A stretch of 64,000 bases of DNA from Gossypium raimondii (lineage: Eukaryota; Streptophyta; Magnoliopsida; Malvales; Malvaceae): NCBI RefSeq assembly GCF_025698545.1, contig NC_068577.1, forward strand, positions 5,719,501-5,783,500, read 5' to 3'. Of this stretch, positions 2,788 through 63,192 are shown piece by piece. Within the stretch, counting starts at the first letter, position 1, and each line of letters opens with the position of its first letter. The position numbers were made by a program, and so were the translations under genes. Under the pieces are notes generated by a model. It did not search any database. It was not told the DNA's origin and saw nothing but the letters and a program-made list of their open reading frames with translations.

Positions 2788-3275
2788 CACTACGCCAAAA
2801 CAGGTCTTTAGCGGCGTATTTTGTGGCGTTTGGAAAACAAACGCCGCTAAAAATTGAACATTAGCGGCGCATTAACGAAAACGCCACTAATAATAAGCAA
2901 TAGCGGCGATTCACAACAAGCGCCGCAAAAAAATAAGGCCAACGACGCCGTTTACTAAGTTTTTGGGCCATTAGCGGGTTTTTATAAAAACGCTGCTAAT
3001 GCTCGGGGGACTTTGCGGCGATTTCTAAAAAGCGCCGCAAAAAACCTAATGCGAACGACGTCGTTTTCGAGTTTTTGTCCCTTTTGCGGCGCTTTTTTAA
3101 AAGCGCCGGTAATGCTCATATCTTTCGCGGCGTTTTCTGAGAAACGCCGCAAAAAACCTAAGGGCAACGACGCCGTTTTCTTTGTTTTTGGGCCTTTAGC
3201 GGCGCTTTCTTAAAAGCGCCGCTAATGATTTGTTCTTTAGCGGCGTTTTTTTGGAAGCGCCGCTAATAGTAATAA
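2788..3275. repeat. Left subterminal repeats of the CACTA element
   Basis: At least ten copies of TTAGCGGCG / AAAACGCCGC motifs occur in both orientations, many as short palindromic pairs, with AACGACGCCGTTTTC-type spacers. Known CACTA elements use such subterminal motifs as TNPA-type binding sites; here binding is inferred from position only. Confidence 0.85.
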
Positions 3276-3854
3276 AAAACCATTCCAATTATCTCATGAT
3301 TTGATATATTTTTTATTATAAGATGAATATTTCGTTGTATTTATTATATATTGGTCAAATTTACATTTAAATGATAACAAATAATATTAATGTTTAATAC
3401 AAAATGTTTTTATTAATTAAAGAGAAGTCCTAATTAAGTCCTAACTATTTATTATTATTTTGCAATCACAGTTTATTTAAACTACTTTAGTAGAAAAATA
3501 TATATATAAAATTATGAGTAAAATAAAATATAATAAAACTTAAATTGTTGTGTTGTAAAGAATAAAAAGTAGAAAAAATTTGATATATAGTTCGACTAAA
3601 TTAATATATAAATCAAACAAAGTAATATAAAACACCAAATTAATATCGTGATTAATAATATTATATATTATTTAATTAGTTGGGTTAGTACGGATAATGA
3701 TGAATAATTATGATAATATGCATGGGACATGGCATATAGCTTCCTAAAACGATGTGGAGTGGGCACCAAACTCTAATAATATTTTTGTAGTCCATGCCCG
3801 AGTAGAATGGGTTGAAACATCGATCTTTTTCTCTGGATAATGATATGCAAAGTG

Positions 3855-4345
3855 AGATGCTTAGGGGTTAGGGGTCTAGAGGTTAGACGTTAGGCTTTAA
3901 GACTTAGGGTTTAGGGGTTTAGGGTTATAGGGATCGGGTTAGGGTTTAGGGTCTAGATTAATTTTTTAATTTATATTTTAAATATATGTTCTTTATGTAC
4001 GTAATTGTAAAAGAGATAATAATAAATTTAATAGACTGAAATTATGAGTATATATATAGTTGAAATTATGGCTTAAGAGATATATAATATATGTTATATT
4101 TAATTACTGAGATTCATACCATTTGATATTATAAGAATCTAAAATATTTGTTTTGTACTACAATAATATTATGATTGGGATTCTTGGTTTTTGAGTTTGG
4201 GGTTTAGTTTTTGGGGGTAAGGGTTTGTGGTTTGGGGTTTGGGGTTTGGGATTTGGGTTTTTAAGTTTAGATCTAGTTTAATGTTTGGGGTTAGGGGTTT
4301 GGAAATTTAAGGGTCGGTTTTGGGTTTAGGGTTTAAAGATAAGTT
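3855..4345 (+). repeat. Degenerate telomere-type (TTTAGGG-like) repeats
   Basis: Two clusters, about 3860-3955 and 4195-4345, are rich in GGGTTTAGGG, TTAGGGTT, GGGGTTTGGGG and similar heptamer variants, close to the plant telomere repeat TTTAGGG. They lie well inside the CACTA element, so they are interstitial, not a chromosome end. Confidence 0.6.
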
Positions 4346-4589
4346 ATGATATAATATTTGATTTTGGGGTTTGTTTATGGTTGTTTCTAGTTTTTAGGTT
4401 CAGGTACGGTGTTCCGGCTAACAGGTCACGGGTCATGAGTGTAAGGGTTTAAATTGAATGTGGATATTTTACAATATAATTCGAATTAAATTGAGTTTAA
4501 ATTATCAATTTAATAAATATATATATGAAAAAGGATTAAATCCCAGAAGCTTACAAAAATTAGATGGTTTTAGGGTTTAAATTGTATTC

Positions 4590-5740
4590 ATTGAAAACGA
4601 CGCCGTTTCTAGTGGATTTGCATTAGAATTAGCGGCGCTAAACATGAAACGCCGCAATAGATGAAATAATACCGGCGTTTACTATAAAAGCGCCGTAAAA
4701 TACTGTAAGTTGTGAAGAAAACGGCGCCGTTTTCTTATTACATTTAGTGGCGTTTTAGATAAAACGCCGCAAGTATGTTTTCTTTGTTACGGAAACGGCG
4801 TCGTTTTCCATTGTTATTAGTGGCGTTACACCCAAAACGCCGCAAATATATTTTAAAGATTACACGAGTTTGCATTAAACGACTGCGTTTGACCTTATAT
4901 TTAGTGTCACTATATATAAACGCTGCAAAATCGAAATGGTGTTACGAAAAACGGCGCCGTTTTTTATTACATTTAGTGGCGTTTTAGAGAAAATGCCGCA
5001 AGTATGTTTTCTTTGTTACGTAAACGGCGTCGTTTTCCTTTGTTATTAGTGGCGTTATACCCGAAATGCCTCAAATAAATTTTAAAGATTATAGGAGTTT
5101 GCGTTAAACGACTGCGTTTGACCTTATATTTAGTGGCGCTTATATATAAACGCCGCAAACTCGAAAATGGTGTTACAAAAAACGGCACCATTTTCTTATT
5201 ACATTTAGTGGCGTTTTAGATAAAACGCCGCAAGTATATTTTCTTTGTTACAGAAACGGCGTCGTTTTCAAGGATATTTGTGGCGTTACACCCAAAACGC
5301 CGCAAATATATTTTAAAGATTACAGGAGTTTGGTTTAAACGACTGCGTTTGACCTTATATTTGGTGGCGCTTATATATAAACGCCTCAAAATCGAAATGG
5401 TGTTACGGAAAACGACGCCGTTTCCTTAGTTGGTTTTAGTGGCGCTTTTATTAAACGCCGCAAATTTGCATTACAACTTAAGGAAACTGCGTCGTTTTCC
5501 ATTGTTAGTAGTGGCACTTTGCTTAAAACGCCACAATGTTGTTTTAATTTTAATACAAACGATGCCGTTTTCTATATATTATTCGTGGCGTTTTTTCTAA
5601 AACGCCAAAAGGTTTAGTTACTTGATGGGGAAACGACTGCGTTTGGCGATATAGTTAGTGGCGTTTGTTTATAAAAGCCGCAAAGGGGTTAAATATGTTG
5701 ACGTAAACGACGTCGTTTGTTTTCCACCATTTTGACCGAA
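4590..5740 (+). repeat. Internal GGCG repeat array with ~230-bp tandem units
   Basis: Motifs of the form GTGGCGTTTTAGA...AAAACGCCGCAA alternate with AAACGGCGTCGTTTTC-type blocks. A longer unit begins CATTTAGTGGCGTTTTAGA at 4741, 4970 and 5202, giving tandem repeats of 229 and 232 bp. This array lies 1.8 kb from the left terminus, separated from the true subterminal block by AT-rich and telomere-like DNA. Confidence 0.8.
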
Positions 5741-7841
5741 ACAAAACCAAATTAATTCCCCGATTCTCCACCCCCCAAAAGAGACATCTCCCCCAAATCC
5801 CTAAAATTTCCCCTAATTCCTAATAGTTCCCCAACGTAGTCCAGAACGGCGCCGATTTCTTTGCTGCATCACAGCCTCCGTGCGTATCCGGTACCGCAAC
5901 CATCGGTAAGTTCGTCAACTTCCTTTTTCTTCTTCATGCGCCATCTGTAATTATACAAGCTATCTCCAATATTCTATCAGTCTCAATATTCAAACCTGCA
6001 TAGACGAGATGAATGCGATTCTTACATCACATAATCCACCATCGGCGTAAACTAAAATTAGTCATAAGTATCATTTTCTAGGGTTTACCAGTCATTTCCA
6101 AGTCAATCCAAACAAGGGTAACTTGTAGTTTTCCAAAGCAATGCGGTTTCGATTCATTGAGCCCTTCCCATTGATTTTGCTCTTACATCAATCATAAAAA
6201 ATTTATCAATCAAGCACACCCCAAAGTTCAAATGATTCTAACCCTAAACCCAAAGGCAATGATTGAAAGACGAAAGTAGATAAGCGGACTGAAGGTTTGG
6301 AAGCAGATGATGAAGCCGGTGGGGATGATGATCGTCCACATCAATATCCAAAGAACGAAAACGCATTCGATAGCCTATCCATTCTTCTTCTAAAAAGCTT
6401 TTAGGTCAATTTGAAATCCCGAGCGATTTTCCTACGCTACTCCGGACTTTCGATTCAAGACGGGTTGAGCCTAAGTTTCTTCTTTTCCCTTTTCTTTACC
6501 TTCAAGTATAAATAAATTCTTCAATATCTTTGCCAAAAGATTTTATCATTATTATCTCTAATTACTTTTTTAAGCTATTTGTAAAAAATATTAATATATG
6601 GCGTAATTAAAATGCATTGTCACTTTTCATGTGGTTACTTAATCAATTAATAGAATGTAGTACTAAATTAGGTCAAGCGAAATTTAGGAGTAAAGTGAGA
6701 AAATGATATTTTTAAGATCATTTAAGTATTATAATTTTATAAGATTTTAAAATTAAATAATTAAATAATTAAAATTTCAAATTTGTTTTTGGTTATTTTT
6801 TAATTTCAAGTTTAAATATATATGCATTAATTATTATTTATATTAGGACTAGAACTTAAGTTAAAAATACATAGAGACTAGTTAAATTATATTTTATTTT
6901 TTACTCAAAAATAAATAAATTAGTCTTTATAAAAAATTTTAAATAAATAAATAAATTAGTCTTTATAAATAAATAGATAAAATTTTTAATATAAAAATGT
7001 TTTACTTAATTTTCTAACAAAATCACATTTTTCTTATTTTAAGAAAATTCAAAATAAAAATCACCATAGAAACCGGCTTTACTCTCGCCATCTTTCCCTT
7101 AGCTCTTCACTTTAGGTAAATATTTCTTACGTCTATTATTATTATTTGATTATCTTGTTTTCCTTTCAATTATATGTTCATGTTTAATTTTGTTTTGATT
7201 GCAATATCTTTCTGATATTCATTGGATGCTTATTTTTGGGAATATATCTCGGTCTGTTTCCTCTGAATTAAGTTTCACTAAGTATTTTTAAAAAAATTTC
7301 CGTCTGTGAATTAATTGGGTACATTCCTTGATCTTGAATATTGATCTCAATGTTGAGTGTTTTTCATTTCTTGAATTAGAATTTATATTTATGCATGACT
7401 GATTTGAAATAAGTTTGAATTGTTTTTGTAATATCGGGGAACACTTTGCTTAATTTTTAATTTAATTTTAAGTTTAATTTTAGATAACTTACAAAAATTT
7501 AGTTAAAACTAACATAACATACATAATTTAATTCAAAGTTATTTTTATTTGTTTTAAAGTTAAAATTCACATAACATACATAAATTAAAGTTACAATTTG
7601 AATTACATAACTTACATAATACATAACCTTCCTAGCTTACATTATTTAGATAATACATAGCCTACATAACTTACATAAATTAAATAACTTACATAACTCA
7701 CATAATACACAACTTACATAACTTACATAATACATAACCTTCCTATCATATCATAACTTACAGAACTCATATATAGTAATATCTGGCGTTTTAACTTACC
7801 CGTGCAAATTATTGTCAACGTCAGACTTCAATAATTAAGAA
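5740..7841 (+). other. Upstream region of the CACTA transposase gene
   Basis: No coding domain was recognised. A C-rich tract at 5755-5830 and a GC-richer segment to about 6450 look like a promoter or untranslated leader. A possible leader exon ends near 7113 (CTTTAG followed by GTAAAT). 7600-7760 is a low-complexity run of CATAACTTACATAATA-type repeats. Confidence 0.35.
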
Positions 7842-10800
7842 ATGGACCGGTCTTGGATGAATTTGTCAAGGGTAAGCAACGGCTATCGAAATGGAGTACA
7901 GACGTTTTTAAATTTTGCATTTCAATATGCAAGCCAAGAGAACATGATTCTTTGCCCCTGTAAGAAATGTGTCAACATAAATTGGCATTATCGTGAGGTT
8001 GTATATGAGCATCTAATTGTTGATGGGTTTGTTCGGGGTTATAAACAATGGTTCTTTCATGGAGAATGCCCGCCTAGTACTTCCTCTTCAAGGATGGATG
8101 TAACTTATCCTGATACTGCTTACCATCAGTCTGATAGAGGGGATGACATGGAAGGTATGTTGCGGGATGCATTTAATATGCACAATCATGGTGTCCAGTC
8201 GAGACATACGATGTTTGTGGCCCCTGATGATTGTAATATTGGTGGAAATGCTTTTACCGAACTGGGAAGTGCTGTACGTCATGAAGAGCCGAATGGAGAA
8301 GCCGCGAAGTTCTATGCGCTACTTAATGACATGAACGAAGAACTATATGAGGGATCAAAATTTTCAAAAATGTCCTTCTATGTTCGTCTTTTTCAATTAA
8401 AGTGTTTGGGAGGGTGGACCGGAAACTCATTGACAATGCTGTTAGAGTTTTTGACAGAAATGTTTCCGTTTGCAAAAATCCCTCGGTCATGCAAAGATAT
8501 GAAGAAAATGATAAAAGATTTAGGCCTTGGGTATAACAAAATCCATAGTTGCCCAAATGATTGCATGTTGTATTGGGGCGATCGGAGAAACCAACAGTGC
8601 TGTCATGTATGTGGCCACTCACGTTGGATAAGTAGAAACACAGAAGATGGGAACGACGATGAAAATGATGCACAGTCACGGAAGAAGCCAGTCAAGATTT
8701 TGCGGTATTTTCCGTTGATACCAAGGCTTCAAAGGCTTTTCATGTCGTCGAAGACAGCGGAGTCAATGACGTGGCACCATGATGGACGAACCGATGATGG
8801 GTTATTAAGGCATCCAGCAGATTCTTTAGCTTGGAAATCATTTGACAATAAATTTCCAAGCTTCGCAAGTGATCCTAGGAGTGTGAGGCTTGGGCTAGCA
8901 TCTGATGGATTTAATCCTTTCAAGATCATGAGCACTGCCTACAGTACTTGGCCAGTAGTGCTTGTTCCTTACAATCTGCCTCCGTGGATTTGCATGAAGC
9001 AATCTTCCCTTATCTTATCTATGATTATCCCTGGAGAGAAAGGGCCCGGGAATGATATCGACATTTATTTGCAGCCACTTATTGAAGAGTTAAAACAATT
9101 GTGGGCTGGTGTCGAGACATACGATGTGCTGAGAAAGGAGAACTTTAATTTACGTGCAGCTTTGATGTGGACTATTAATGACTTTCCCGCTTATGCCAAT
9201 TTATCCGGTTGGAGTACCAAGGGTCGTTATGCGTGTCCTTGTTGTGCTGCACAAACATGTTCGCAATGGTTGTACAATGGGAAGAAGTTCTCTTACATGG
9301 GGCATCGTCGGTGGTTACCGAAAAATCATAGATTTAGATGTTATGCACATTGAGAAAAATGTCTGCGAGAACATTGTGGGTACAGTTTTGAGTGTCGACG
9401 GAAAATCAAAAGACAATCTTCAGAGTCGACTTGATTTAGTCCAAATGGGAATCCGACCTGATCTTCATCCCAATCCACTTCCGAATGGGAAATATCGGTT
9501 GCCGCCTTCTATTTTTTCAATGTCAAAGATGGAAAAAGAATTGTTCTGCACGGTGTTGAAGGATATAAAGGTTCCAGATGCGTATGCATCAAATATATCT
9601 CGATGTGTTAGTGTTAAAGATCGAAGATTATATTCGCTAAAATCACATGACTATCACATCTTGATGCAAGATTTATCGCCGATGGCTCTACGATGTTGTA
9701 TGTCCAAGAAGGTGACGTCTTGTATAATTGAACTATCCAACATAATGAAAGCCATTTGTGGCAAAGTTTTGGACGTTCAAGAACTTCAGAAGGTACAGGA
9801 TCGAGCCGCTTTGACTTTAGGCAACATGGAGGAAATCTTCCCACCTTCCTTCTTCACCATTATGGTTCACTTGATAATCTATCTCCCACACGAAGCAATT
9901 CTTGGCGGACCCGTTTTCTATCGATGGATGTATCCCATAGAAAGGTGTTAATTAAAATTTTTAAAGTTTTCCTTCATTCACCTCTATGCCTTTAGTTTCA
10001 ATAATTAAGAAATGTTGTATATTGTGTTTAGGTTTCTATCCAAATTAAAGTCTTCTTCGCAACAAAGCGATATCCGTAAGGATCGATTCTTTGAAGGCTA
10101 CTTAGCGTAAGAATGTATGACCTTCGCTCAAGATATTTGGAAGATGTTGAAACCAAAGTTAAATGACCAAATAGGAATGTTGGACTCACGGACCATAACT
10201 TAGCCGATACTTATTTGTTCCAAATTTTTGGAGAACCAATCGGAAAAGTTAAAATTGCAGAATTAGATCATTTATCGTAGGTACAAGCACATCGATATGT
10301 TCTGTTTCACCACGAATTATTGGAACCTTTACGGAAGTAAGTTCTACAAATTTGATAAATATTTATCAAACTAATAACTGTTTATCTTCTAACAAAGATC
10401 ACATTTTTTTAACACAGTGAGTACAAACAAATTTTGAGATCTCGTTTGCACTCCCGAAGAACACAACATCAAGATATCAATAAGTTGTTTACAGAATCTT
10501 TTTATGAATGGTTAAGCCAAACGGTATGCAGTTCGAGCTTCCGCTTACAAATAATAATGTTTTCTTATAACAAATGAATTACTCAGTTTACTTTCCATTC
10601 AATAGGTTTGGAGTGGGAAGAACGTAACCGACGATGTTAAATGGCTCTCCCAAGGTCCAAATCGAGTGGTTAAAAGATATAGTGCGTTCCTCATCAACGG
10701 ATTCAGATTTCATACAAAATATCGCGAGAGGTTGAGGAGAACGCAAAATTGTGGAATAGTTGTCAATTCTGCAATTACAAGTTATGCTAGTGCTAGGGAC

Positions 10801-11256
10801 AATAATCCTGTCGAGGGAAATGTGGAATATTTCGGACAACTTACTGACATAATTCAGTTGGATTACTACGACAAATGGAAAGTTGTCTTATTTCGTGGTG
10901 ATTGGGCCGATGTTAATACAGCTCGTGGAATTAAGCAAGATCAATTTGGTTTTACAATGGTGAACTTTGACCGATTGATTCACACAGGACAACAACTGAT
11001 AGATGAGCTGTATGTATTCTCATCTCAAGTCAAACAAGTTTTTTACTCAAAAGATCCAACTGATGAGGGTTGGTACGTTGTACTCCGTAACATCCCTAGA
11101 GACTTGTTTGACATGGGCAGTGGAAGTAGAGATAACATCGACGATAGATCAGTAACTTTGCCCTTTCCAGAACAAAACTTAAACGATAATACCCCTAGTA
11201 CTAGTGCACAATTTGGATGGGTTCGTCAGGATATCGATGAAGATATTTACGAATAA
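7842..11256 (+). pseudogene. CACTA transposase (TNP2/Transposase_21 with DUF4218 and DUF4216), disrupted
   Basis: This encodes the DDE transposase that would cut and paste CACTA elements. From the ATG at 7842, residues about 3-75 form the N-terminal transposase-associated domain (MDRSWMNLSR start, CPCKKC motif). The Transposase_21 domain follows, with a Cys-rich segment (SCPNDCMLY, CCHVCG) and the acidic motifs LASDGFNPF and WTINDFPAY. At about 9335 the frame jumps from 'LPKNHRFR' straight to 'DLDVMHIEKNV', so the catalytic-domain stretch normally between them is deleted and the frame is broken. DUF4218 runs about 9500-9950 and continues after an intron at 10032, where an in-frame TAA occurs after 'FFEGYLA'. 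Further exons are visible near 10280-10335 and 10420-10525, and a DUF4216 exon occupies 10606-11256. It is not expected to make active enzyme. Confidence 0.9.
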
Positions 11257-11406
11257 TGATGTAGTAAGATTTTACGATTGTTTAATTATATGTAATATCA
11301 TAATTTAAATCTTCGTCTTATTATATATTTCAACTGTTTTATATGTGTTGTTATTGTTGTAATTAGTTATTAAGTTGTTAACTATTTTATGTGTATTGTA
11401 GATAAA

Positions 11407-46959: not shown

Positions 46960-47176
46960 TTTATAAATTTATAGTATTAATAGAATCTCTAATTTAATTG
47001 GTGTTACGGGTTAATCGGATACTAACTCGGTTAAGAAATTATGAAAATATTCTTCCGTAATTAAAATGAGTCATATTATTCAAGGGCATTTTAGTTTTTT
47101 CATTTTAACAAAAACCAAGAAAAATATGCATATAGTGAGATTTCAACCCGTGCCAATTAAATTAGTAAAACCTTAA
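46960..47176 (+). repeat. Host repeat interrupted by the Harbinger element
   Basis: 46960-47176 plus the continuation from 52795 matches a second copy at about 52885-53135 (shared TATTATTCAAGGG, AAATATGCATATA, TTAGTAAAA, TTTACCACT landmarks). The second copy is uninterrupted and shows the empty target site. Confidence 0.75.
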
Positions 47177-47194
47177 GAGCACGTTTGATTCGTT

Positions 47195-47350
47195 GTATTG
47201 GAATAGAGGCGTAATGGAATAGAGGCGTAATGGAATAGAAGTGTAATGGAATAGAGGTGTAATAGCAAATCAATTGTTTGGTTGAATGTAATGGAATAGA
47301 GGCGTAATAGTATTCTTGTGTTTGGTTGAATGGAATAGAGGTGTAATAGC
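47195..47350 (+). repeat. Subterminal GGAATAGAGGCGTAAT repeats
   Basis: About seven direct copies with one- or two-base changes (GGAATAGAAGTGTAAT, GGAATAGAGGTGTAAT) occur next to the left end. A related GGATTAGAGGCGTAAT lies near the right end at 52742. They are possibly binding sites for the element's own proteins. Confidence 0.75.
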
Positions 47351-47454
47351 ATAATGGAAAAAACTAAAATGACTAGAATACCCTTAGCATAAATTTGTTT
47401 GGGTAAATGATTATTGTTATTGTTATTTAAATTTTAATAAGATTATTAATATCA

Positions 47455-48180
47455 ATAATAAATAATTTAATCATATTTAAACATAATTATTATTAAATAT
47501 ATTATAATTAAAATATATAATTTAATAAAATTCTTAATAATCAATATTCTTATATGAATTTACTCAAATCATAATATATGATACTATAAAATATAATTTA
47601 ACATAATTATTATTAAATATATTATAATTAAAATATATAATTTAATAAAATTCTTAATAATTAATATTCTTATATGAATTTACTCAAATCATAATATATG
47701 ATACTATAAAAGATAATTTAACATAATTATTATTAAATAAATTTTAATTAAAATATATAATTTAATAAAATTCTTAATAATTAATATTCTTATATGAATT
47801 TACTCAAATCATAATATATGATACTATAAAAGATAATTTAACACAATTATTATTAAATATATTTTAATTAAAATATATAATTTAATAAAATTCTTAATAA
47901 TTAATATTCTTATATGAATTTACTCAAATCATAGTATATGATACTATAAAAGATAATTTAACATAATTATTATTAAATATATTTTAATTAAAATGTATGA
48001 TTTAATAAAATTCTTAATAATTAATATTCTTATATGAATTTACTCAAATCATAATATATGATACTATAAAAGATAATTTGAAATAATTAATATTAAATAT
48101 ATTTTAATTAAAATATATGATTTAATAACATTTAAAATAATTATAACTAATAAATTTTCTTATATGAATTTTTATAATTT
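47455..48180 (+). repeat. 120-bp AT-rich minisatellite, ~6 units
   Basis: The landmark ATATGATACTATAAAA recurs at exactly 120-bp steps (about 47577, 47697, 47817, 47937, 48057). Units are more than 90% alike by eye in the centre and decay after 48120. The repeat contains no reading frame. Confidence 0.9.
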
Positions 48181-48501
48181 AAAATAATTATTATTACATA
48201 TAATTTAATAATAATATATAATTTCATAAAATTCTTGATAATAAATTTTCTTATATGAATTTATACAATTTAAAATAATTAATATTAAATATAAATTAAT
48301 AATGATATATAATTTCATAAAATTCTTAATAATAAAATGTTCTTATATGAATTTACTAAAATCAAAATATAACTTGAGTGTGATATTCTGCATAAACATA
48401 ATTAACTTATATTAAGAAAAGGTTAGATGAAAATGAAATTCTACATCATAATCCATATGTTGTATAGTTTTACAACATCAAAAAGTTTGAACATTGATTT
48501 T

Positions 48502-49551
48502 TTATGGGTCAGAAAGAAATCTTCTGACCCATTCCAATCGCGCAACAGAAGGTAAACTAAAGAAAACGATCATTTGAGTTGGATGTTCTGGAATTTTAAG
48601 CAAAGCTCGATACCGCTGATCGTCGGTTAAACCTTCAATTTCCCATAAGGTTGAATATAAATTTGAAGCTTTCTCTTCCATCTTTTGATATTCTTCTGAC
48701 TTCTGCTGAACTACCACCTCGGAGGCAATACTCCTACTGATTTGATCGCCAACGGCCTTGATGTTTTCAGCCAATAAAGTGGCAGCCTCATCAAATGAAG
48801 AAGACATATCACGAGCATTAGATTTCTTCTTCCTCTTGTTGGAAGAGGAGGAACCCCTTGGTCTCTATCTCGTTGCGGCTCCGCAGCAGAAACATCCATC
48901 TCATCCAAAGAGATGTCAGCTTCGCAGTCATAGAATGAGTTTCTTTCTTCATCCATACCTGTAGTATGTACACCCTCAGCATTTATTTCTTCAAGAACAT
49001 CAGCAGCTGTTTGAGCATCTTTCCCAGTTGCTCGATCTCTTGCGTATATGGTAGTAAGCTGGTCGTAGTAAGGGAAACTACAATGTCTGAATTAGCGGCT
49101 TCTTTGTGACTCTAAAAAAATGAAGAAATCATATTAGTTATAAGTTTGGTAAAAATAAGATAATAAAGACTTGAACTAATCTTACCTTTAAATAGGAGTC
49201 CCAAACCGCATCTTCAGCAACAACGAGCTGCCTATGCTCGTTCCAACCAAAACCGCTATTGTTTTGGCCATTAAGCATGTCATAGACGATTGACCACTCC
49301 CTTTTTAGTAACCTAATCCTCGATTCAATATTAGGTTTCGCCTTCAACATTGCATTTGGTAAAACCTTTTGTAGCATTCTTTCCAACTCGTTTAAATAAC
49401 CGGCTTTGAACCCGGTATCAGCATTAAATGTTCCAACATTGTGCAGGTCCACCATGCAGGAAACCAATGCTGCATCTTCTTCTAGAACCCATTTTCATTT
49501 GGTTCCTCGAGAAGCTTGAGAAGAAGCATTTGGTTCTGGAACACCTGACAT
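48502..49551 (-). pseudogene. Harbinger ORF1: Myb/SANT-like DNA-binding protein, broken
   Basis: On the minus strand the ATG at 49549-49551 starts MSGVPEPNASSQ. A TGA follows where relatives read 'GTKRKW', apparently CGA changed to TGA. The Myb/SANT-like domain then reads on ('LEEDAALVSCMVDLHN', 'RIRLLKREWSIVYDMLNG', 'WNEHRQLVVAEDAVWDSY') to an intron donor near 49198. Downstream a linker with stops and a frameshift leads to the conserved C-terminal part (48502-48807, 'MSSSFDEAATLLAENI' to 'ALLKIPEHPTQMIVFFSLP' and 'EWVRRFL'). In PIF/Harbinger elements this protein binds the element's ends and helps the transposase. Confidence 0.82.
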
Positions 49552-49838
49552 AATTATCTTAAGAACAAAATAAAAACAAATTATATTAATTACTATTTTA
49601 ATATCATGAATCAAAAGGTGAACACTTTATAAAATTATAATTAAGCTCAATATCATGAATCAAAAGCTCCATACCACAAAAAATTTAAAATTATAACACA
49701 AACTATAATTTAAAATTTAAAATTTAAAATTATAACACAAAAAATTTAAAATTTAAAATGAGAAGAAATTAGATTATAATTCAACAAGTTTAGTACAATA
49801 CAAAAATCAATACAAAAGTTTCACAAAAGTTTCACAAA

Positions 49839-50291
49839 CTAATTTCTAGATGTTTTCCATTCATCGAACATTTGGTTCGCTAGTTCCATCCTCCAAGTAG
49901 CCCAAGCATCCGATGGATGAATATTTGTGATATTTGGTTCATCGTCATCCACCACATTAGTAAGTAATCCTTCTCCCACCTCCGCTTCAATGGGATCAAT
50001 ACTCATATGGGTTCGAATAAAATTATGGAGCAAACAACATGCAATAATAATTCTATGTGCACCCTTACAGGATAGAACGATGGACTCCTAAGTATTCCCC
50101 ATCTAAGTTTTAATAACCCGAAGCATCTTTCAATAACATTACGTGCTGAGGCATGTTTCATATTAAAAAACTCTTGCGGAGAACTTGGCTGATAACCCTG
50201 ACGCCACTCGTTCAAATGATATCGTTGTCCTCTAAAAGGTGCAAGAAATCCCTCACAATTTGTGTATCCAGCATCAACTAGATAATAACAA
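49839..50291 (-). pseudogene. Harbinger transposase (DDE_Tnp_4), 3' exon only
   Basis: Read on the minus strand from an acceptor AG at about 50292: 'YYLVDAGYTN', 'FLAPFRGQRYHLNEW', 'NMKHASARNVIERCFGLLK', 'RWGIL', then a frameshift near 50020 and 'MLHNFIRTHM' to the C terminus. This is the region around the third catalytic acid and the C-terminal tail of ALP1/Harbinger nucleases. The upstream exon with the first two acidic residues is absent from the element, so no active nuclease can be made. Confidence 0.85.
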
Positions 50292-50670
50292 CCTATAAAA
50301 TAAAATTGCTACTTAAAATGATTAATTCAGCACAAAAAGTTTGATCTTAATGAACAATATCAAAGTCCTTTAACTATCCACTTTACCATGAGGAACAATT
50401 AGTCCATGTCTTCTACTGATAACCCTTAGTTATTTCTTTTAACTTTCTTCATACAATTACAGTAGAATCTGCTTTCCAACACCCCCTTTTATATTCTTTC
50501 CTCACTTTTATGCATCTATCAGAATTATGGAACTACTATTACTTTACGAATTCCATATGCATGCAAGACTGCTTGTTTAGAGTCTAATCAAGGATGGTGA
50601 GCAATTTGTTTTGTTAATTTTATTTTACATTCAAATCTAGTATTAAAATGAGGTTGTCTTTTCTTCATAG

Positions 50671-50791
50671 GAATAAGCAATTTGCTGTGGTCGAAAATCC
50701 TGGCTTATGGAATTGGACTTTTACTTTGAAGGACATTGATGGGCAACTTTTGGCAGAAATAGATCGTGATTGGAGGGGTTTTGGCTTTGAG
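50671..50791 (+). pseudogene. Captured exon of a phospholipid scramblase-like gene
   Basis: A 121-nt segment with an acceptor (TTCATAG before it) and a donor (GAG followed by GT) reads without stops as 40 residues, NKQFAVVENPGLWNW through FTLKDIDGQLLAEIDRDWRG to FGFE. This pattern (V-NPG-W-W-F-LKD-DG-LL--IDRDWRGFGFE) is characteristic of plant mitochondrial scramblase-family proteins such as Arabidopsis At2g04940. The neighbouring exons were not found on either side, while flanking intron-like sequence is present. It lies antisense to the Harbinger genes and inside the element's ends, so it was acquired by the transposon. Confidence 0.8.
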
Positions 50792-52794
50792 GTTTTCTTC
50801 TTTAAAAAATATCATCTTTTAATCATCACTTGATTCATGGGCTCTAGTTTTTTTTTCATAGTTTTCCATAACAAATATTTGCTTATACATTATTATGGTG
50901 AAATTTTATTGACTCGCCAGAGCAGAGGTTTTAGTCCTTCAGTAAACTTAATTTCAATCAATTTTTGAGATTTACCAATAGGACATTACTGGTTCATCCA
51001 CAAGAGGGAAAAAAGGCGGGTTAAAAGATTAATCCTTTGTTCCATTTAAGTTTCTGGCCTGATATGAGTTCTTTGAGTTGCTGAGACAGGCATAAAATGT
51101 CATAGTACCTGAATTTATAATGGCACATGCTTTGTAACTTTAGCATACTAAATAAGAAAGAACAAAGTACTACCTCTCAAGATAGTTCCCTTTGTAATCA
51201 GATATTGAAATAAACAAAAGCTCTTATGAGGAGCAAAGTGTAGTATTTTGAGATTGGAGGAGTGGGTAGAGCTCCATGTTTGCTTTAGGAGTTTCTCTTC
51301 TAAGATCTTTTCTCATACCGTAAGAAAGATGCTAATGGATGTCCAAAAAGTTGAAGTGTGTGATTTGATGTGTCAAAGTGAGCAAAAGAGTCAAGTGAGA
51401 AGAAGAAAGATGTGGATTGATCATTGTAGAAATCTGGTTTACAATGTTTTGGAATGGAGAGAACAGGGAGGTTGTGAGTTGTCCTAATTCTCCTAACTAG
51501 CTTGGATGCTGTTGATTCATACATTTTGCAGTCCCCATTTTCTAAATGTAAAGTGTGTTCTATATATTCATTTCTGTAAAAGGTAAATTGTTGGTGAAAA
51601 CCGATAGTCGGCATTGACAAACATTTTTTTATGCATATGAAAAGGATGATCTTATTGTGCATTTCTAGGGAATAAGGGTTAGTTTTCTTCAAAGCAATGA
51701 TCAATGATTTATGCTACCCTTTTTTCCTCCCTGTTTCTAAATCTGTGCTTTCTTTTTTGATTTTCAATATTGAGTTGTTAATTCAAGATGACTCGATAAT
51801 CTTATCTTTTCAAAAGTGCTTAACAGAGCAAAAAATTATGAAAATCTCATTTTACCATATATCTTTTACCCTTTTTCATTGGAACTCTTGTTTTTCGTTC
51901 TTTTATCTTATTTTTTCTCCATCCTGATAAATTCTGTCCTCTTTTCTTTCACCAAAAACGACAAATAGTAAAAGATGTTAGATGTGAAAAATGAGATCTT
52001 CATATATTGTTTCCTTGAAGCACACTGATTGCAACTAATTAATGAGCCTATGACTCTAGGACTTAGTGTAGCTGGAAGAAAGGCAATGCATAGAGATCTT
52101 CATATATTGTTTCCTTGAAGCACAATGAACATTTCAATCGAACATGCAATATGAACATTTGCCTATGGAAAACTAACCTGTAATGAGCAAATCGGATGAA
52201 GAAGTCAATGCACTAACAAGGCAGTGATTCGGATCTGCTTACATGCAGAAAAAACAGAAGTCACTAACAAGGCAGCCAATGAAACTCATTACACAGAGAA
52301 AAAGAGTGTTTAGAAACATTAAAGCAGTTTGAGAGCAAAAGAGAGTTAGAAACCTTTACCTTTCAGTTGCAGAAACTTGGAAACCCAACAACTGAGACCA
52401 ATCGAAAGAGTGACAGAGAGAAAACAAAAGAAAAGGTTCACTGGTTGAGAAGGCCAAGCATAATGTTGTAAAGAAAAAGAAAAGAAACAGAAGACGCAAA
52501 TCGGCAGAAAAGAAAAGAAAAGAAACAGAGGGAGCAAATCGGCAGAAACTGGAGCAAATCGGCAGAAGCAAAAGGAAGGAACAGAAGACGCTTGGATTAG
52601 AAATCGGGAGGGTAAAACAGGGAGGGTCAACTGAAGCAGCGCCTAAACTGAGCAGAAGGGAGGGATTAGAAATTGGTGGATTTCACCGATTAGGTCAGTA
52701 ATGGTTTAGCCCCGTAAGAGCAATACATTGAACCAAACAACGGATTAGAGGCGTAATAAGTGGGGCCAGCCAATACACCCAACCAAACATAGTG
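50792..52794. other. Right part of the Harbinger element, non-coding
   Basis: No domain was recognised. A 36-bp sequence (GATCTTCATATATTGTTTCC...) is repeated at about 51992 and 52090, and AGCAAATCGGCAGAA is repeated at 52520-52565. The stretch 52330-52790 presumably held the promoter and leader of the minus-strand transposase gene. Confidence 0.45.
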
Positions 52795-52797
52795 TAA

Positions 52798-54119
52798 GTT
52801 TACCACTCAACTAAAGTATTATTTTAATTTTTTATACATTTTTTAATATGCACAATTTATTATCTTCCCCAATTGTATATCTATACTATTAATAAAGTTA
52901 TTGATTGAGTTAGTGTCAACCTCAATCGGGTCACTAGCTCAGTTAGAAAGTTAAGAGAATATCCTTTAATAATTAAAATAAGTAATATTATTCAAGGGTA
53001 TTTTAGTATTTTCACTTTAAAACAACTAATAAAAATATGCATATAACTAGATTTTAACCCATACCAGTTGCATTAGTAAAATCTTTAATTTACCACTTAG
53101 CTAAAATTTTATTTTAATATTTTAACATATTTTTATTTTATTATGCGATTTTATTACGTGCATCGGTTGTGTATATTAATGATGTATTTTATTGAGTTGA
53201 TGTAACAAATTAACTCAAAACAAACTCAAGATTGATGATAACACTATAATAAACAATTTAGTCTAATTTTGTTCATTTTAATAACATACATATTTCATGT
53301 GTTATTATTAATTAGTTTCAAATAATACGTTTCATTATTTATTGTATATTATTTTAGAAAAACATTCATATTCTAATTTTATAATTTTCACTGATGTAAT
53401 AAAATTTTGAATATATTTTAATATTAAATTATGAAGAAAGCGAATATATAAAATCCTTTAATCAAGTCGTTGTATTCTATTTCGAGTGAAGCTATAATAA
53501 TATTCCATTGAGTTGAAGTCAAATTTAAATAGCGAAATTTGAATTAATTAAGAGCTTAAATTCGCATCGACTTCGTTATAGCCCTAATATATCGTATTTA
53601 CTAATCTATGATATTTTAAGAAAAAATGCAAATTCTTAAAACAACTTAATTCCAACATATCATGAAAATGTTTAAAATGAACCAACTCTCAACAGGGTAT
53701 ATATATTATTCGTTTTGCACTGCCCAATGTCCACCCTCCAATTTAATGAGAAATACCCAAAATAAAAGTTATAAACAAACAAACAAATAGTATTAGAGAG
53801 AGACATTTGGATGGCCCCATTTTCTACAATAATGAACCAAAATTTGGTATTAAATAAGAGTGATTGGTAGTAGTAAAATTATTATTTATCGATAAAGATC
53901 GTGTTACATCCAGCAATACAAAGTTATATGCTTTTTATTTAATTTTTTATATATAATAGGAATAAATAAATTTTAACATTTTCGGTATCTATATAATTTT
54001 CTTTTAAAAATAATTAACGAGGTTTTAATATTGTTGATAAAATTTGAGATTTTAAATTATTGAGTATTGAGATTCGAATCTCATTACACAAAATTGATAT
54101 ATGCAGATCTCCAATTCTA
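52798..54119. other. AT-rich spacer with the uninterrupted host repeat copy
   Basis: 52885-53135 is the intact copy of the repeat at 46960-47176. The rest is AT-rich with no recognised gene. Confidence 0.5.
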
Positions 54120-54715: not shown

Positions 54716-55456
54716 CTTTATCATGTGTGGATTTCAATTAGTTATATCCTACCTATAATTATACTGTTTTTTACACTTTTAAACTTTCAAAAATAATATA
54801 TATATTTCTGGTTTGGTGGCAAGGATCCATCATTGACCAGACAGGTGACGAAGATTTGATAATTGAGTACAAAAACCTTTATGGGGACGTATTAATTTTT
54901 TTGTAAAATAAACTTTTTTTGGCTTGATAGATAAGATAATGTTATGTCGGTATACACTTAATTATTTTTATTAAATATATTATCTTTCAATATGACAAAA
55001 ATATTTTTGTAAATATTATATTAATACACAAATTAGTTAAATTAATTGATAGGTACTAAAAATAACATGTTTTAACCTCATTCTTAATGCATTTTTGGGT
55101 GATTATTCGATGTTAATATTAAATTTTATGCTTCTAATCCTTTAAATTCATGTTTTTATATTTAGGAGATCATTTGGGAGCAAAATAAGCGAAAAACGAG
55201 CAATAACCGGAAAATTTGAGCCAGTTACAAGAACCACACAGGTTGAACCATTCCACACAGTCGTATGAGACACACGGGCTACCACAAGGCCATGTGGCAA
55301 GCCGTGTCGATTTCGTGAATTGCACTCTAAACAGTGAAAAAAACGTGATTTTCAATGTTTTTCAAGCTTTCTAAAACCTATATATGAAAAAAAATAAGAA
55401 CATAGGAGAGAGCCGTTATAGAATATTCAATAAAACAACTCGAAAAACACCATTGA

Positions 55457-58157
55457 TGTAACACCCCAAACCCGTGTCTGTCGCCAGATTAGGGTTGCGA
55501 GGCATTACCTATCAAAGTACAACTCAGAACAGACATTCATTTCAATTCAAGTACCAAATAATATAATCATTTCAATTCTATTCATCTAGTAAAATTTTAA
55601 ACCAAACTAACATGCTTCGATTCTATAATTCGTACACTACCCAAATTAATATTCAAACATTATAACCAATGAATCATGGCAATCTAATACTTAACTTATA
55701 ACTAAGTATGATTTATTTCATATACCAATCATATATTAAGACATCTATTCATATAAATCTATTTCATTAACTACTTTCCAAAATACTATTTATAAATGTG
55801 CACTTCTTCACATTTTACTAAGTCAAGCCAAACCACATGATTTATTAAACATTAATATATATATATATATATACACACACACGACATTAACAACTCCACA
55901 CAATGGTCAAATATAAAATTTGGTTTTACCATATTATGCACATTTTACCAAAATAATAACTACCAATTTTATATATATAAGACCGAATCAAATCATACAA
56001 TAATTACAATACCCTTGACTAATAAATATGCAAAATACCTATCTATCATTTACTAAATTCATAAATCACATATATGACACATTTTAAACTCAAGCATTTA
56101 ACTTAACAACTTAATCATTAATTACCAAAATCACGAACAAAACATATCATAGGCATGGATAAGTATATTTTACCTATTATTAGCCAAATATAAATACACA
56201 CCCTTTTACCATTTCCAAAATACATATACACAATCGACCTTTTATCGATACATTCGATCATAAAACTTACCTTCCGACAATCCAACCAATTTCATAACTC
56301 GAATCAAAGCTAACTGTACCATTTATAACCGTACATAAAAATCCAATATACAAGAAATCATATAAATATAACTTAGCTCATATAAACTTATCATGGTCTA
56401 AATCACAACCATCAACACATTAACATCACATAACCGAATCATAAAACAAATACATTACACATATATATATCATGACTGAAAATTCACAACCATTAACAAC
56501 ATGAGCAAGCCATTTTCGCATGGCTTGGCTATATATAAACACAATTCCAAAATCAACCATATCAAGCTAGACTATACATGCCATAAGTCATAAATACATG
56601 TTTTCTTTCAAGGTACAAAAATAGATATCGATAGTGTGATGATGTTCCTCAACGTTCCTGAGCTCAAGCTAGCTTTCAAAATCTATAAAACAAAACGAAT
56701 AAACATACGAAGTAAGCTTGGAAAGCTTAGTAAGCCATAAGCAAATAAATTAACACAAGAACATTCATAATTCATTTCGAAACAACCAAACCTAGCTAAC
56801 TCCATATATATATAATCCAATTTCTCATAAAGTTCACATGATCACTATAATCATCAACACTTGCCTTTTCTTTCAAAGTTCGTATAAACTTAATACTTAC
56901 CTTAATCGTTTAAATCGAACTCACATTCGGTCTTACCATGTCTTTGCCCGTAGAACCATTCGGAATCAAAAAGGATACTTGGATGGCTCAAAAAGCTCGT
57001 GCAATGCCAATGTCCCAGACGTGGTCTTACATGTATTCAAATAACGATGCCACTGTCTCAGATAGGGTCTTACACGAAATCATATACGATGCTAATGTCC
57101 CAGACATGGTCTTACACGTAAATCTTAAATCGATGCCAACGTCCCAAACATGATCTTATACGATATCACGTATCGAAATTCCTGTGGTTCGTATGGCTTT
57201 TGGATGCCATAAATCAATCGAATTAAGCTCGTAATTAATCATCCTATGCTAAATTCAATTCGACATTGTAGTATCACACATAACTCAGTCCGGCTATGTA
57301 TGAAATAAATACATTCAATTTAACATTATTTATTCACTTACGAACTTACCTCGTACGGAAACAAATGGATGGAATCGACTACTCGACCACTTTCGACTTT
57401 TTCCGATCTAATTCCGTTTTCTTTTGTTCTTGATCTATATAAATTCAAATTTGGCTATTTAATAACACATTTTATTCAAATTTATTCAAAAATACAAATG
57501 GTCAAATTGCATTTTATCCCCTAACATTTCACATTTTTCACAATTTAGTCCATATTTCACAAAACACAAAATACTCAAAATTTCACTAAACCCATGTTAG
57601 GCCGAATTCTCCTTAGGTCCCTAGCAGCCCTTTATTTCATTTATTTCACGTTTTGACTCCTAATTTTACAAATTTCACAATTTAATCCTTAATACACATT
57701 TTCATAAAAAATTACTTAATTAAACATAATAATCTAAAAACATATATTTATCCTTAATGAAAGCTAAATGCATGGCCATTTTGCATTTTATTTTATCTAA
57801 TATCATGTTATTTACTTTTTACTATTTTAACCTTAATGAAAGCTTAATATAAATTACTTGAATCATGGACATAAATGTCCACTAACCTTATAATGGCATG
57901 TTAACCTTTTAAGGACTTCCCATAAATCAAATCATAACAAATTAGCATATTAACAATGAGAATGCCACTTTTATTTTTTTATGCGATTTAGCCTTTTTCA
58001 CAAATTAAGCACATAAACAGATAAATTACATCACAGAAATTTCACACATGTCAATTCGCATACTATAAGCACGGAAAGTAATATTAAAATTTTATTCTGA
58101 CTTAGATTTATGGTCCCGAAACCACTATCCGACTAGGGTCTAAATCGGGCTGTTACA
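55457..58157 (+). mobile_element. 2.7 kb solo LTR nested in the gypsy 5' LTR
   Basis: Ends TGTAACACCCC and GGGCTGTTACA; the 5-bp duplication ATTGA lies at 55452-55456 and 58158-58162. The matching position in the 3' LTR (ACACCATTGAAGTCGATT near 62770) is uninterrupted and gives the empty site. It is the same family as 40084-43171, opposite orientation. No coding capacity. It includes an (AT)n(AC)n tract near 55857-55882 and a minisatellite at 56980-57165. Confidence 0.9.
56980..57165 (+). repeat. Minisatellite inside the 2.7 kb solo LTR
   Basis: Four imperfect units of about 45-55 bp share GATGCCAATGTCCCAGAC and TGGTCTTACACG. The array happens to be open for about 70 residues, but this is a by-product of the repeat. 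Confidence 0.75.
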
Positions 58158-60670: not shown

Positions 60671-62380
60671 ATGAAAATGAAACCAATTAAAGCAATCAGT
60701 GTTTTTAATATTGATGTCGTTTCTATGTTAGCAAATCAGGTTGAAACGCAATGTTGTGCCTCACGATTGGTAGTTGTTTTTATTTATGAGATTTCTTTGT
60801 TTTATTTTATTTTTCTTCTGAATTTTATATTTTATTATTTTATCGGTTGTTTTCTTTTAATTTTACTATCTCTTTATCTTATTTATTTTTGTCCATTTTC
60901 TTATTAGTTTTCTTGGAAAAATATACTTCATTTAGATTTGCCTATGATTCCAGTTTTCACTATTCTGGTGAAATCATCCAAATTCAGGGCAGTTTTAGTT
61001 CTCTCCTTGCCTTATGATATTGTGCTTATTCTGTGATTATAATTGTTTGTACATTGAGGGCAATGTATATCTTAAGTGTGGGGAGGTTGTTTATATGTTT
61101 ATGCGATAAAATCTCTGAATTGTTGTTTGTGTTTGAGTAGTTTTCTCATACCTAGCATTGTAGTAATATATTTTAATTTAAAGTTTGTATTGATTCTGCT
61201 TTTGGAATAATTTGTGGATTTTTGTGAATTGTATGATTTATACTTTAAGACGCAAGAGAGTCAAGCATGATAATTTTTTTAGAAATTATTATTTTAGGTT
61301 GTCTCCTGAATTGAAATATTATTTTGAAATTTTAAATTTGCAAGTTTAACATCAAAACTATACTTTTTGTGAGCTTTTTAGCCTATGGAGCATATATTTA
61401 TTCGTACTCAATTTATTTTTGATTATGAGTATGTCAACTTGATTTGTTATTCTAGAACTTGCTTTGATTATACATGTTGAGACCACATTATTGATTTGAT
61501 ATATTGAGATGATAGAGGCACTTAGGATTTAACCCATTTAAACTTTAATCAGCTTACCTATTGTATTAACCCTTAGACTCCATTGATTCTAACACATTTT
61601 TTCACCCATTTATGTTAACCCATAACCCATATGAATGTTGTAAAATTATCCTTTTATTAACTCTTTTTTGTCGAGATTTGATTTGTTTAGTTGCTAACTA
61701 TGTTTCATTATTTGAATTGCTGAATTTTATTTTGTTCTTAAAAATTGAGAGAAAAAATGATGAAAAAAAAGAAAAAAATTGAGCTTAAATCATTAGTTTC
61801 ATATTTTGTTGAAAAGCTCGTTTTCATTTTTGTTAATTTCTTGTTGATGTAAATTCTTTTAATTCAGCAACTGATTTTTTTCTAGTTTGGTAACTTATCA
61901 AGTAGACTCTCAGTTATAAAATTTTTTTGACCTTTTCCATATCCTTAACCTAAGCCCCATTACAACATTGTAAAGACCTATTGATTGGTGTGTCATCTCA
62001 TTTATAGTGGTGGAGATTTGAATTTCAAGTAAGCCTATGGTAATAACATTTCTCTTTTGACCGTTGAGTGCATATTATTTGAACCTTAAACACTTTAAGT
62101 GCTTTGAGTGAATATTTAGTGAGGATGTTATTTCTTGTTGAGTTTGAATTTCAGGTAATTATTGAGATAGGGGAGATGCCTAATGTTTTTAAAGCTTAAA
62201 ATTCTCTGCTTGGATTGCTTGTGTTATTTAGTGTCATTTTAATGAGAATTTCCAATGCATGATTACCTCTAGATTATCCTAAGACATTATTAGTGGAAAT
62301 AATAAATTGAGAGAAGTTAACTTGATTGTGGGTTGAGGATTTTGCTTGAGGACAAGCAAACGCTTAAGTGTGGAGATATT
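60671..62380 (+). other. Non-coding 3' internal region of the gypsy element
   Basis: The region between gag and the 3' LTR has no pol domains. Landmarks are CATTGAGGGCAATGTATATC and AAGTGTGGGGAGG near 61055-61085, and GAGGACAAGCAAACGCTTAAG just before the LTR. It is T-rich, with no functional open frame. Confidence 0.6.
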
Positions 62381-63192
62381 TGACAGGTGCCAAAAGTAAC
62401 ATGTTTTAGCCTCATTCTTAATGCGTTTTTGGGTGACTATTCAATGTTAATATGAAATTTTATGCTCATAATACTTTAAATTCATGTTTTTATACTTAGG
62501 AGATCATTTGAGACCAAAATGAGATAAAAACGAGCGAAAATCGAAAAATTGGAGTGAGTTACAAGAGCCACAGGGCCTGGACACACAGTTGTGTGAGCCA
62601 CACGGGCTGCCATATGACCATGTAGCAAGCTGTGTCAATTTCGCGAATTGCACTCCAAACAGCGGAAAAACACGATTTTCAGGGTTTTTCGGGCATTCTA
62701 AAACCTATATATGACCAAAATAAGAAGATAGGAGAAAGCCATCATAGAATATTCATGAAAACAACTCAAAAAACACCATTGAAGTCGATTCTAAAGTAGA
62801 TTTTCGTCAAGATTGAAGACTCTAAGTTGATTTCTTAGGAGATTATCATGAGTTTCTTTATTTCTTTCAGTTATACTGTCTTTTGGATGTTTTTATTTGC
62901 AAGCATGAACTAATTTTCTAAATACCTAGGGAGATGAACCCTATAGTGAATTTCGTCGTTTGATTTTTATTTTACGTAATAGAGACTTAGATCTTGTTCT
63001 CAATTATGTGTGTTTAATTCTTGGTTTGATATTTCTGGAATTTTTATCCATGTTTGATGTTCTTAAATCAGAGGAGGAATAGACCCGGTTTAAGAGTAGA
63101 TCTAGCGTAATTGAGTGGAGTTGCATGCAATTCGAGAAATAGGACAACATAAATCTACCGGGTTAGATTCAAATCTAATATGGGAATCCATA
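62381..63192 (+). repeat. 3' LTR of the gypsy element, truncated
   Basis: Starts TGACAGGTGCCAAAAGTAAC and parallels 55047 onward, including the ACACGGGC segment (62565-62635). It loses similarity after AATCCATAG at about 63192, where the 5' copy continues ATCGAGTTAATGCG, so about one third of the LTR is missing. Confidence 0.8.

Follow-up and report, generated by a model that had tools for sequence, protein, structure and literature searches.

Capture of host gene pieces by PIF/Harbinger transposons is already known. PIF elements of grapevine, described in 2008, carry captured exons together with introns in their 5′ region (PMC2528002), Pack-PIFs were reported in maize and rice in 2022 (PMC8903248), and the account given of Turmoil-1, a Harbinger element of C. 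elegans (2008), describes a pair of host exons, still separated by their intron, and a mutated 5′ splice site (PMC2572040). Pack-TYPE capture in plants is covered in a review of 2026 (PMC13317346). Pack-MULEs, Pack-CACTA, and gene-capturing Helitrons also carry host gene pieces, although their transposase superfamilies and target duplications differ from those of PIF. The preliminary description of the locus presented here called such capture much less often described for PIF/Harbinger; this holds as to frequency, but the phenomenon is not new (PMC2528002, PMC8903248), and what is particular to the present case is that the host is cotton and that transposase exon 1 has been lost where the capture lies. 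Among the papers listed on gene capture in cotton, including capture by Harbinger elements, none reports this case in its title or abstract opening, which is no proof of its novelty.

A close counterpart is Pifvine-3 of grapevine, a member of the PIF superfamily described as having captured host exons with introns in a long 5′ region of up to 3.5 kb, and as being flanked mostly by TAA or TTA duplications (TAA in the cotton element); some grapevine captures are stated to be common to multiple copies (PMC2528002). According to the same report, the grapevine PIFs keep the coding capacity for transposase and ORF1, whereas the cotton element has lost transposase exon 1. Cluster 18 of Zm-Pack-PIF in maize, given as 72 Pack elements averaging 535 bp, has PIF ends around a short host piece (163 bp at 97%) (PMC8903248); the cotton element, in contrast, is 5.6 kb long, with most of its own genes still present. 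Unlike the cotton element, Turmoil-1 resides in an animal host and has its capture placed in 760-bp inverted repeats (PMC2572040). The locus described here provides a well-delimited cotton example of the capture of an exon with its probable introns, and the price is plain to see, as the captured DNA has replaced the first exon of the transposase. While it opens no new kind of mechanism, it is a useful case for asking whether captures arise by template-switch repair or by fusion of neighbours.

The window, i.e. the whole stretch of 64,000 nucleotides of cotton DNA that was analysed, very probably contains, as far as can be judged from sequence comparisons, a PIF/Harbinger element that captured AIM25 genomic DNA: a whole 121-nt exon with intron-like flanks, antisense to the genes of the element. 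The element and its target site comprise the following features.

47174–47176, strand not applicable: left target-site duplication, TAA
47177–52794, minus strand (own genes): whole PIF/Harbinger element, 5,618 bp
47177–47201, plus strand: left terminal inverted repeat
52770–52794, minus strand: right terminal inverted repeat
52795–52797, strand not applicable: right target-site duplication, TAA
53012–53136, strand not applicable: empty-site paralogue of the target, without the insertion, to which the joined flanks align

The terminal inverted repeats (TIRs) are imperfect, with agreement at 18 of their outer 25 bases, a match equalled by 72 of the 529,778 TAA…TAA pairs sampled 1–12 kb apart within the window. 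A diverged copy of the target, located ~290 bp from the insertion, runs through the joined flanks in pieces that are 80% and 84% identical to them, and positions 47177 and 52794 are therefore the borders of the insertion. The placement of the exon within TAA-flanked Harbinger ends, as originally proposed, is borne out by the two TAA copies, the TIRs, and the empty-site paralogue. No RNA families were detected in the region 47000–53200 at the gathering threshold. The target itself is repeated, with 47100–47176 plus 52795–52850 and 53012–53136 being 80–84% alike.

The genes belonging to the element are all found on the minus strand, opposite to the captured exon, in agreement with the antisense arrangement noted earlier. 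Their remnants, and an array that accompanies them, are as follows.

50385–50423, minus strand: surviving tail of transposase exon 1, its last 13 codons, VISRRHGLIVPHG
49842–50293, minus strand: transposase exon 2 (DDE_Tnp_4, PF13359), with one frameshift near 50054
49186–49557, minus strand: Myb/SANT-like DNA-binding exon (PF12776), with one in-frame stop
48505–49091, minus strand: later portion of the Myb/SANT gene; frame shifted between 48855 and 48816; matches P0158 and P0164
47475–48143, strand not applicable: AT-rich tandem array within the element, near its left end, with a 120-bp unit, 5.6 copies, and 96% matches

The two domains were recognized as DDE_Tnp_4 (E 5.1e-11) and Myb_DNA-bind_3 (E 1.8e-11), and in exon 2 the identity to a Gossypium relative (P0124) is 91.7% over 84 amino acids. 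Among the listed matches, the closest transposases come from G. barbadense, G. anomalum, and other cottons. Thus, the features characteristic of PIF/Harbinger, namely a 3-bp target-site duplication of the TWA type (TAA), TIRs, DDE_Tnp_4, and a Myb/SANT-like second protein, are all found in this element. When its genes are compared with those of relatives, the 1,411 nt of coding sequence still present show three lesions. Among the listed transposase-like proteins (P0121–P0240), numerous models from G. barbadense, with GOBAR_DD names, have a DDE_Tnp_4 domain together with a Myb/SANT domain, which looks like the joint annotation of the two element genes as one protein; these two-domain models suggest a sizeable element family in cotton. 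Short GTAATGGAATAGAGGC repeats are present at 47195–47263, before the tandem array.

The captured exon occupies positions 50671–50791 of the plus strand and corresponds to an exon of AIM25, a phospholipid scramblase-like protein. Its leading G at 50671 completes a split codon, which is followed by 40 codons ending with GAG directly before GT; the translation of 50672–50791, NKQFAVVENPGLWNWTFTLKDIDGQLLAEIDRDWRGFGFE, contains no stops, as had been reported for this exon. It is identical to Gossypium AIM25 in 39 of 40 residues, and the lone difference from the proteins of G. arboreum and G. raimondii is the change of V to L (codon CTT). In a Pfam profile search, the exon matches Scramblase (PF03803) with E 1.8e-6 and 27.9 bits, above the cut-off of 25.4; the domain is incomplete, covering profile positions 140–185 of 221 in one exon only. 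A tblastn search of the window with AIM25 of G. arboreum (P0001) gave E 3.9e-22, with the exon equivalent to residues 254–293 of that protein and the match running two residues further (IF vs VF). A search of proteins of about 220–700 amino acids with words from the exon yielded 317 matches, 120 of them listed, and the top five among the latter, from Gossypium and Hibiscus, are 98% identical across the entire exon. The nearest AIM25 proteins among those listed are from G. arboreum, G. raimondii, and Hibiscus; together with the cotton transposases, they mark the window as nuclear plant DNA of Gossypium. AIM25 proteins therefore exist in Gossypium, and the statements made here about the donor gene rest on protein comparison. 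The papers found for AIM25 in a search of the plant literature all concern fungi, judging by title.

An exon accompanied by splice signals could suggest that a resident AIM25 gene is present at this locus, with the Harbinger element being unrelated to it or merely inserted. The 120 listed AIM25-like proteins (of 317), however, when compared with the entire 64 kb, gave 120 matches at E ≤ 0.1, all of them confined to the single exon at 50671–50791, and this exon is enclosed by borders fixed through the target-site duplication, the TIRs, and the empty-site paralogue. A second AIM25 exon was not found elsewhere in the 64-kb window with these 120 queries at E up to 0.1, and among the tblastn matches listed for AIM25, those elsewhere in the window have E 0.6 or worse. 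A resident gene is thus hardly conceivable and was rejected, since the AIM25-like proteins match the window at one exon only. The refutation named in the preliminary description, continuous alignment to a full scramblase gene at this locus in related genomes, was approached through substitutes, in which the joined flanks aligned to the empty-site paralogue and these searches revealed no resident AIM25 gene. The central claim of the preliminary description, that a Harbinger element captured a host scramblase-like exon, is upheld by the PF03803 and AIM25 matches, by the reality of the element ends, and by the location of this exon in the place of transposase exon 1.

The usual donor sequence is GTAAGT. 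In the captured exon, the acceptor at 50670/50671 (TTGTCTTTTCTTCATAG, followed by G) is good by eye, while the donor at 50791/50792 (GAG, followed by GTTTTC) has the GT but not the usual AAGT after it and is weak. The assertion that both splice sites are present can therefore be kept in full for the acceptor and only in a minimal sense for the donor. The 40-residue spacing is kept in all 120 listed AIM25-like relatives, and in six of these 120 (of 317 matches), none of them from cotton, the gene model breaks at an exon edge: P0015, P0018, and P0037 diverge or stop directly after GFGFE, whereas P0039, P0054, and P0088 diverge directly before NKQF. Such positions are those expected if introns were located exactly at both edges of this exon in other eudicots. 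The coincidence of the breaks with the exon edges places both ends of the capture outside the exon and makes genomic DNA, rather than mRNA, its source. Alternatively, GTTTTC can be read as two further codons, for V and F, at a point where the sequence of Gossypium AIM25 is IF; VF occurs there in P0025 and P0034, both from Perilla. The copied exon could then extend by up to 6 nt and end at a breakpoint; the intron positions apparently conserved in other eudicots make this reading less likely.

The exon is found where the 5′ exon of the transposase is missing, as stated before, with the refinement that the 13-codon tail of exon 1 remains. In the Gossypium relative P0158, exon 1 ends with RDAISRRHGLIVPHG and is followed by exon 2, starting with CYYLVDAGY; the order in the window is the same, with the tail at 50423–50385, a short intron, and exon 2, which starts at 50293. 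Of 628 transposase-like matches, 120 were listed, and 29 of these recovered the tail; ~240 N-terminal residues of the transposase are missing. Transposase N-termini of eight relatives (211–251 amino acids) found nothing better than E 0.98 in the region 50424–52800, and those of 103 transposase-like proteins, i.e. the 120 listed less 17 without a usable N-terminus, had as their best match there a stretch of 25 residues, 24% identical, with E 0.046; the best 15 of the 52 weak matches are scattered across both strands. A six-frame Pfam scan of 50300–52800, with stops read as X, placed the scramblase exon alone above the cut-off. On the basis of these searches, the foreign DNA replaces exon 1 and was not simply inserted into it. 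No six-residue word of the AIM25 exon is shared with the 120 listed transposases (of 628 matches), as a fusion of this exon into them would require.

The homology to exon 1 ends within about 10 bp upstream of the surviving tail. The only exception, P0149 (one of 120 models), can be aligned past the tail as far as 50501, at 44% identity overall with three stops and a four-residue gap; this extension was taken for chance, and the left limit of the foreign DNA is accordingly a little less sure. Since the captured piece replaces nearly all of exon 1, this copy of the element cannot make a whole transposase. A DDE catalytic triad is carried by PIF/Harbinger transposases; it is not complete here, as the DDE domain has kept its later parts, while its opening part was encoded by the lost exon 1. 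This bears on the autonomy of the element, not on its family membership. With a host gene fragment between its TIRs and no intact transposase, the element has the composition of a Pack-TYPE transposon.

The region between the tail of exon 1 and the right end of the element can be divided as follows.

50424–51992, plus strand: foreign segment, comprising the AIM25 exon and intron-like flanks, in place of transposase exon 1
51993–52028, plus strand: first copy of a 36-bp direct repeat; the two copies agree at 35 of 36 positions
52093–52128, plus strand: second copy of the 36-bp direct repeat
52129–52769, minus strand: probable 5′ leader native to the element, judged by composition, with T in excess on this strand

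The left limit of the foreign segment lies within about 10 bp, and the right one appears to be near 52000. Plant introns are T-rich in the sense direction. The plus strand is T-rich to the left and to the right of the exon (T–A skew 0.22 and 0.10), as far as about 52000, and becomes strongly A-rich from 52129 (skew −0.43; 269 A and 108 T among the 641 nucleotides of 52129–52769), a pattern that fits sense introns followed by the leader of the element itself. The flanks of the captured exon would accordingly be introns of AIM25. The 36-bp repeat is located near the turn from T-rich to A-rich sequence, where the captured DNA would have its right edge. As template-switch repair can leave direct repeats, this one may be a scar of the capture. 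An 85-codon open frame is present within the foreign segment at 51230–51487 (plus strand), with a match to PAN_1 (E 0.0024) that is under the cut-off; among proteins of about 220–700 amino acids, the search for relatives of the residues encoded by 51278–51487 gave two candidates, neither at E ≤ 1.

Helitrons and MULEs often capture gene pieces, and another transposon (Helitron, MULE, hAT, or other) carrying the AIM25 exon might have inserted into the element, with a later deletion removing exon 1. This course of events is unlikely. After a plain nested insertion, exon 1 should continue beyond the inserted DNA, but the searches described above did not find the N-terminus there, and no inner TIR pair (at least 10 of 12) with a target-site duplication of at least 5 bp surrounds the exon. 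The five weak inner candidates, with duplications of 2–3 bp, compare with seven, one, and four in three mononucleotide shuffles. These results thus lend no support to nesting of another TIR-bearing transposon; a Helitron insertion, for its part, leaves neither TIR nor target-site duplication.

In the route that we prefer, and consider reasonably probable, a break inside the element would have been repaired by gap filling that proved abortive, with the template switching to AIM25 and back. Such switching would account for the kept ends, the lost interior, and the genomic filler. In animals, most single-copy Pack-TIRs have been attributed to transposition-independent gap filling, in an account that does not name Harbinger (PMC8277862). 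The main rival, possible although clearly less probable, is that two Harbinger copies flanked the AIM25 exon, lost their inner ends by deletion, and moved by their outer ends as a hybrid. Such fusion of neighbours has been argued for Pack-TYPE elements of maize, including Pack-PIF (PMC8903248), and described for Pack-CACTA in Arabidopsis; the succession of a left part cut within exon 1, foreign DNA, and a right end fits it as well. It requires, however, that a single exon of a single gene received an insertion on either side, and there is no remnant of an internal TIR, with no other match of 18 of 25 or better inside the element, although the model permits its deletion. No feature of the left junction discriminates between gap filling and neighbour fusion. 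If the element moved after the capture, it would have done so as a non-autonomous Pack-TYPE transposon, dependent on the transposase of other copies.

In the preliminary description, the kept reading frame was taken to mean that the capture was recent or that the exon is spliced into transcripts, but it does not argue for the latter. The rate of lesions in the element genes predicts 0.26 lesions in 120 nt, with a probability of 0.77 that there are none, and in a neutral simulation limited to substitutions, sequences free of stops and with no more than one amino-acid change were obtained with probabilities of 0.75, 0.26, 0.06, and 0.002 at divergences of 1%, 3%, 5%, and 10%, respectively. The open frame is therefore no evidence of use, and, if the copy has evolved neutrally, its divergence from the source is probably below about 5%, which makes it fairly recent. 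The exon might still be in use, either spliced into a transcript or, when transcribed in antisense from the promoter of the element, as a source of small RNAs acting on AIM25, in keeping with its open frame, single conservative change, intact acceptor, and orientation antisense to the element genes; a similar antisense role was proposed for a piece captured by a CACTA element of grapevine (PMC2528002). As an open frame is expected without selection and the splice donor is weak, such use is improbable, and the captured copy would now be an unselected pseudo-exon. One might speculate further, although the idea is a long shot, that captures favour the 5′ region of plant PIF/Harbinger elements, as in Pifvine-3 of grapevine and the cotton element, and that, where the captured exons are antisense to the promoter of the element, its silencing also yields small RNAs against the donor, here AIM25.

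Two other regions of the window attract attention by eye. The region of about 2788–11260, with CACTACGCCAAAACAGG near its start, many repeats of the GCGGCG type, and long gene-like stretches from about 7840, is a candidate for a CACTA-type element. Two similar stretches in the same orientation, at about 55030–55470 and 62380–62790, are possibly LTRs or repeated sequence.
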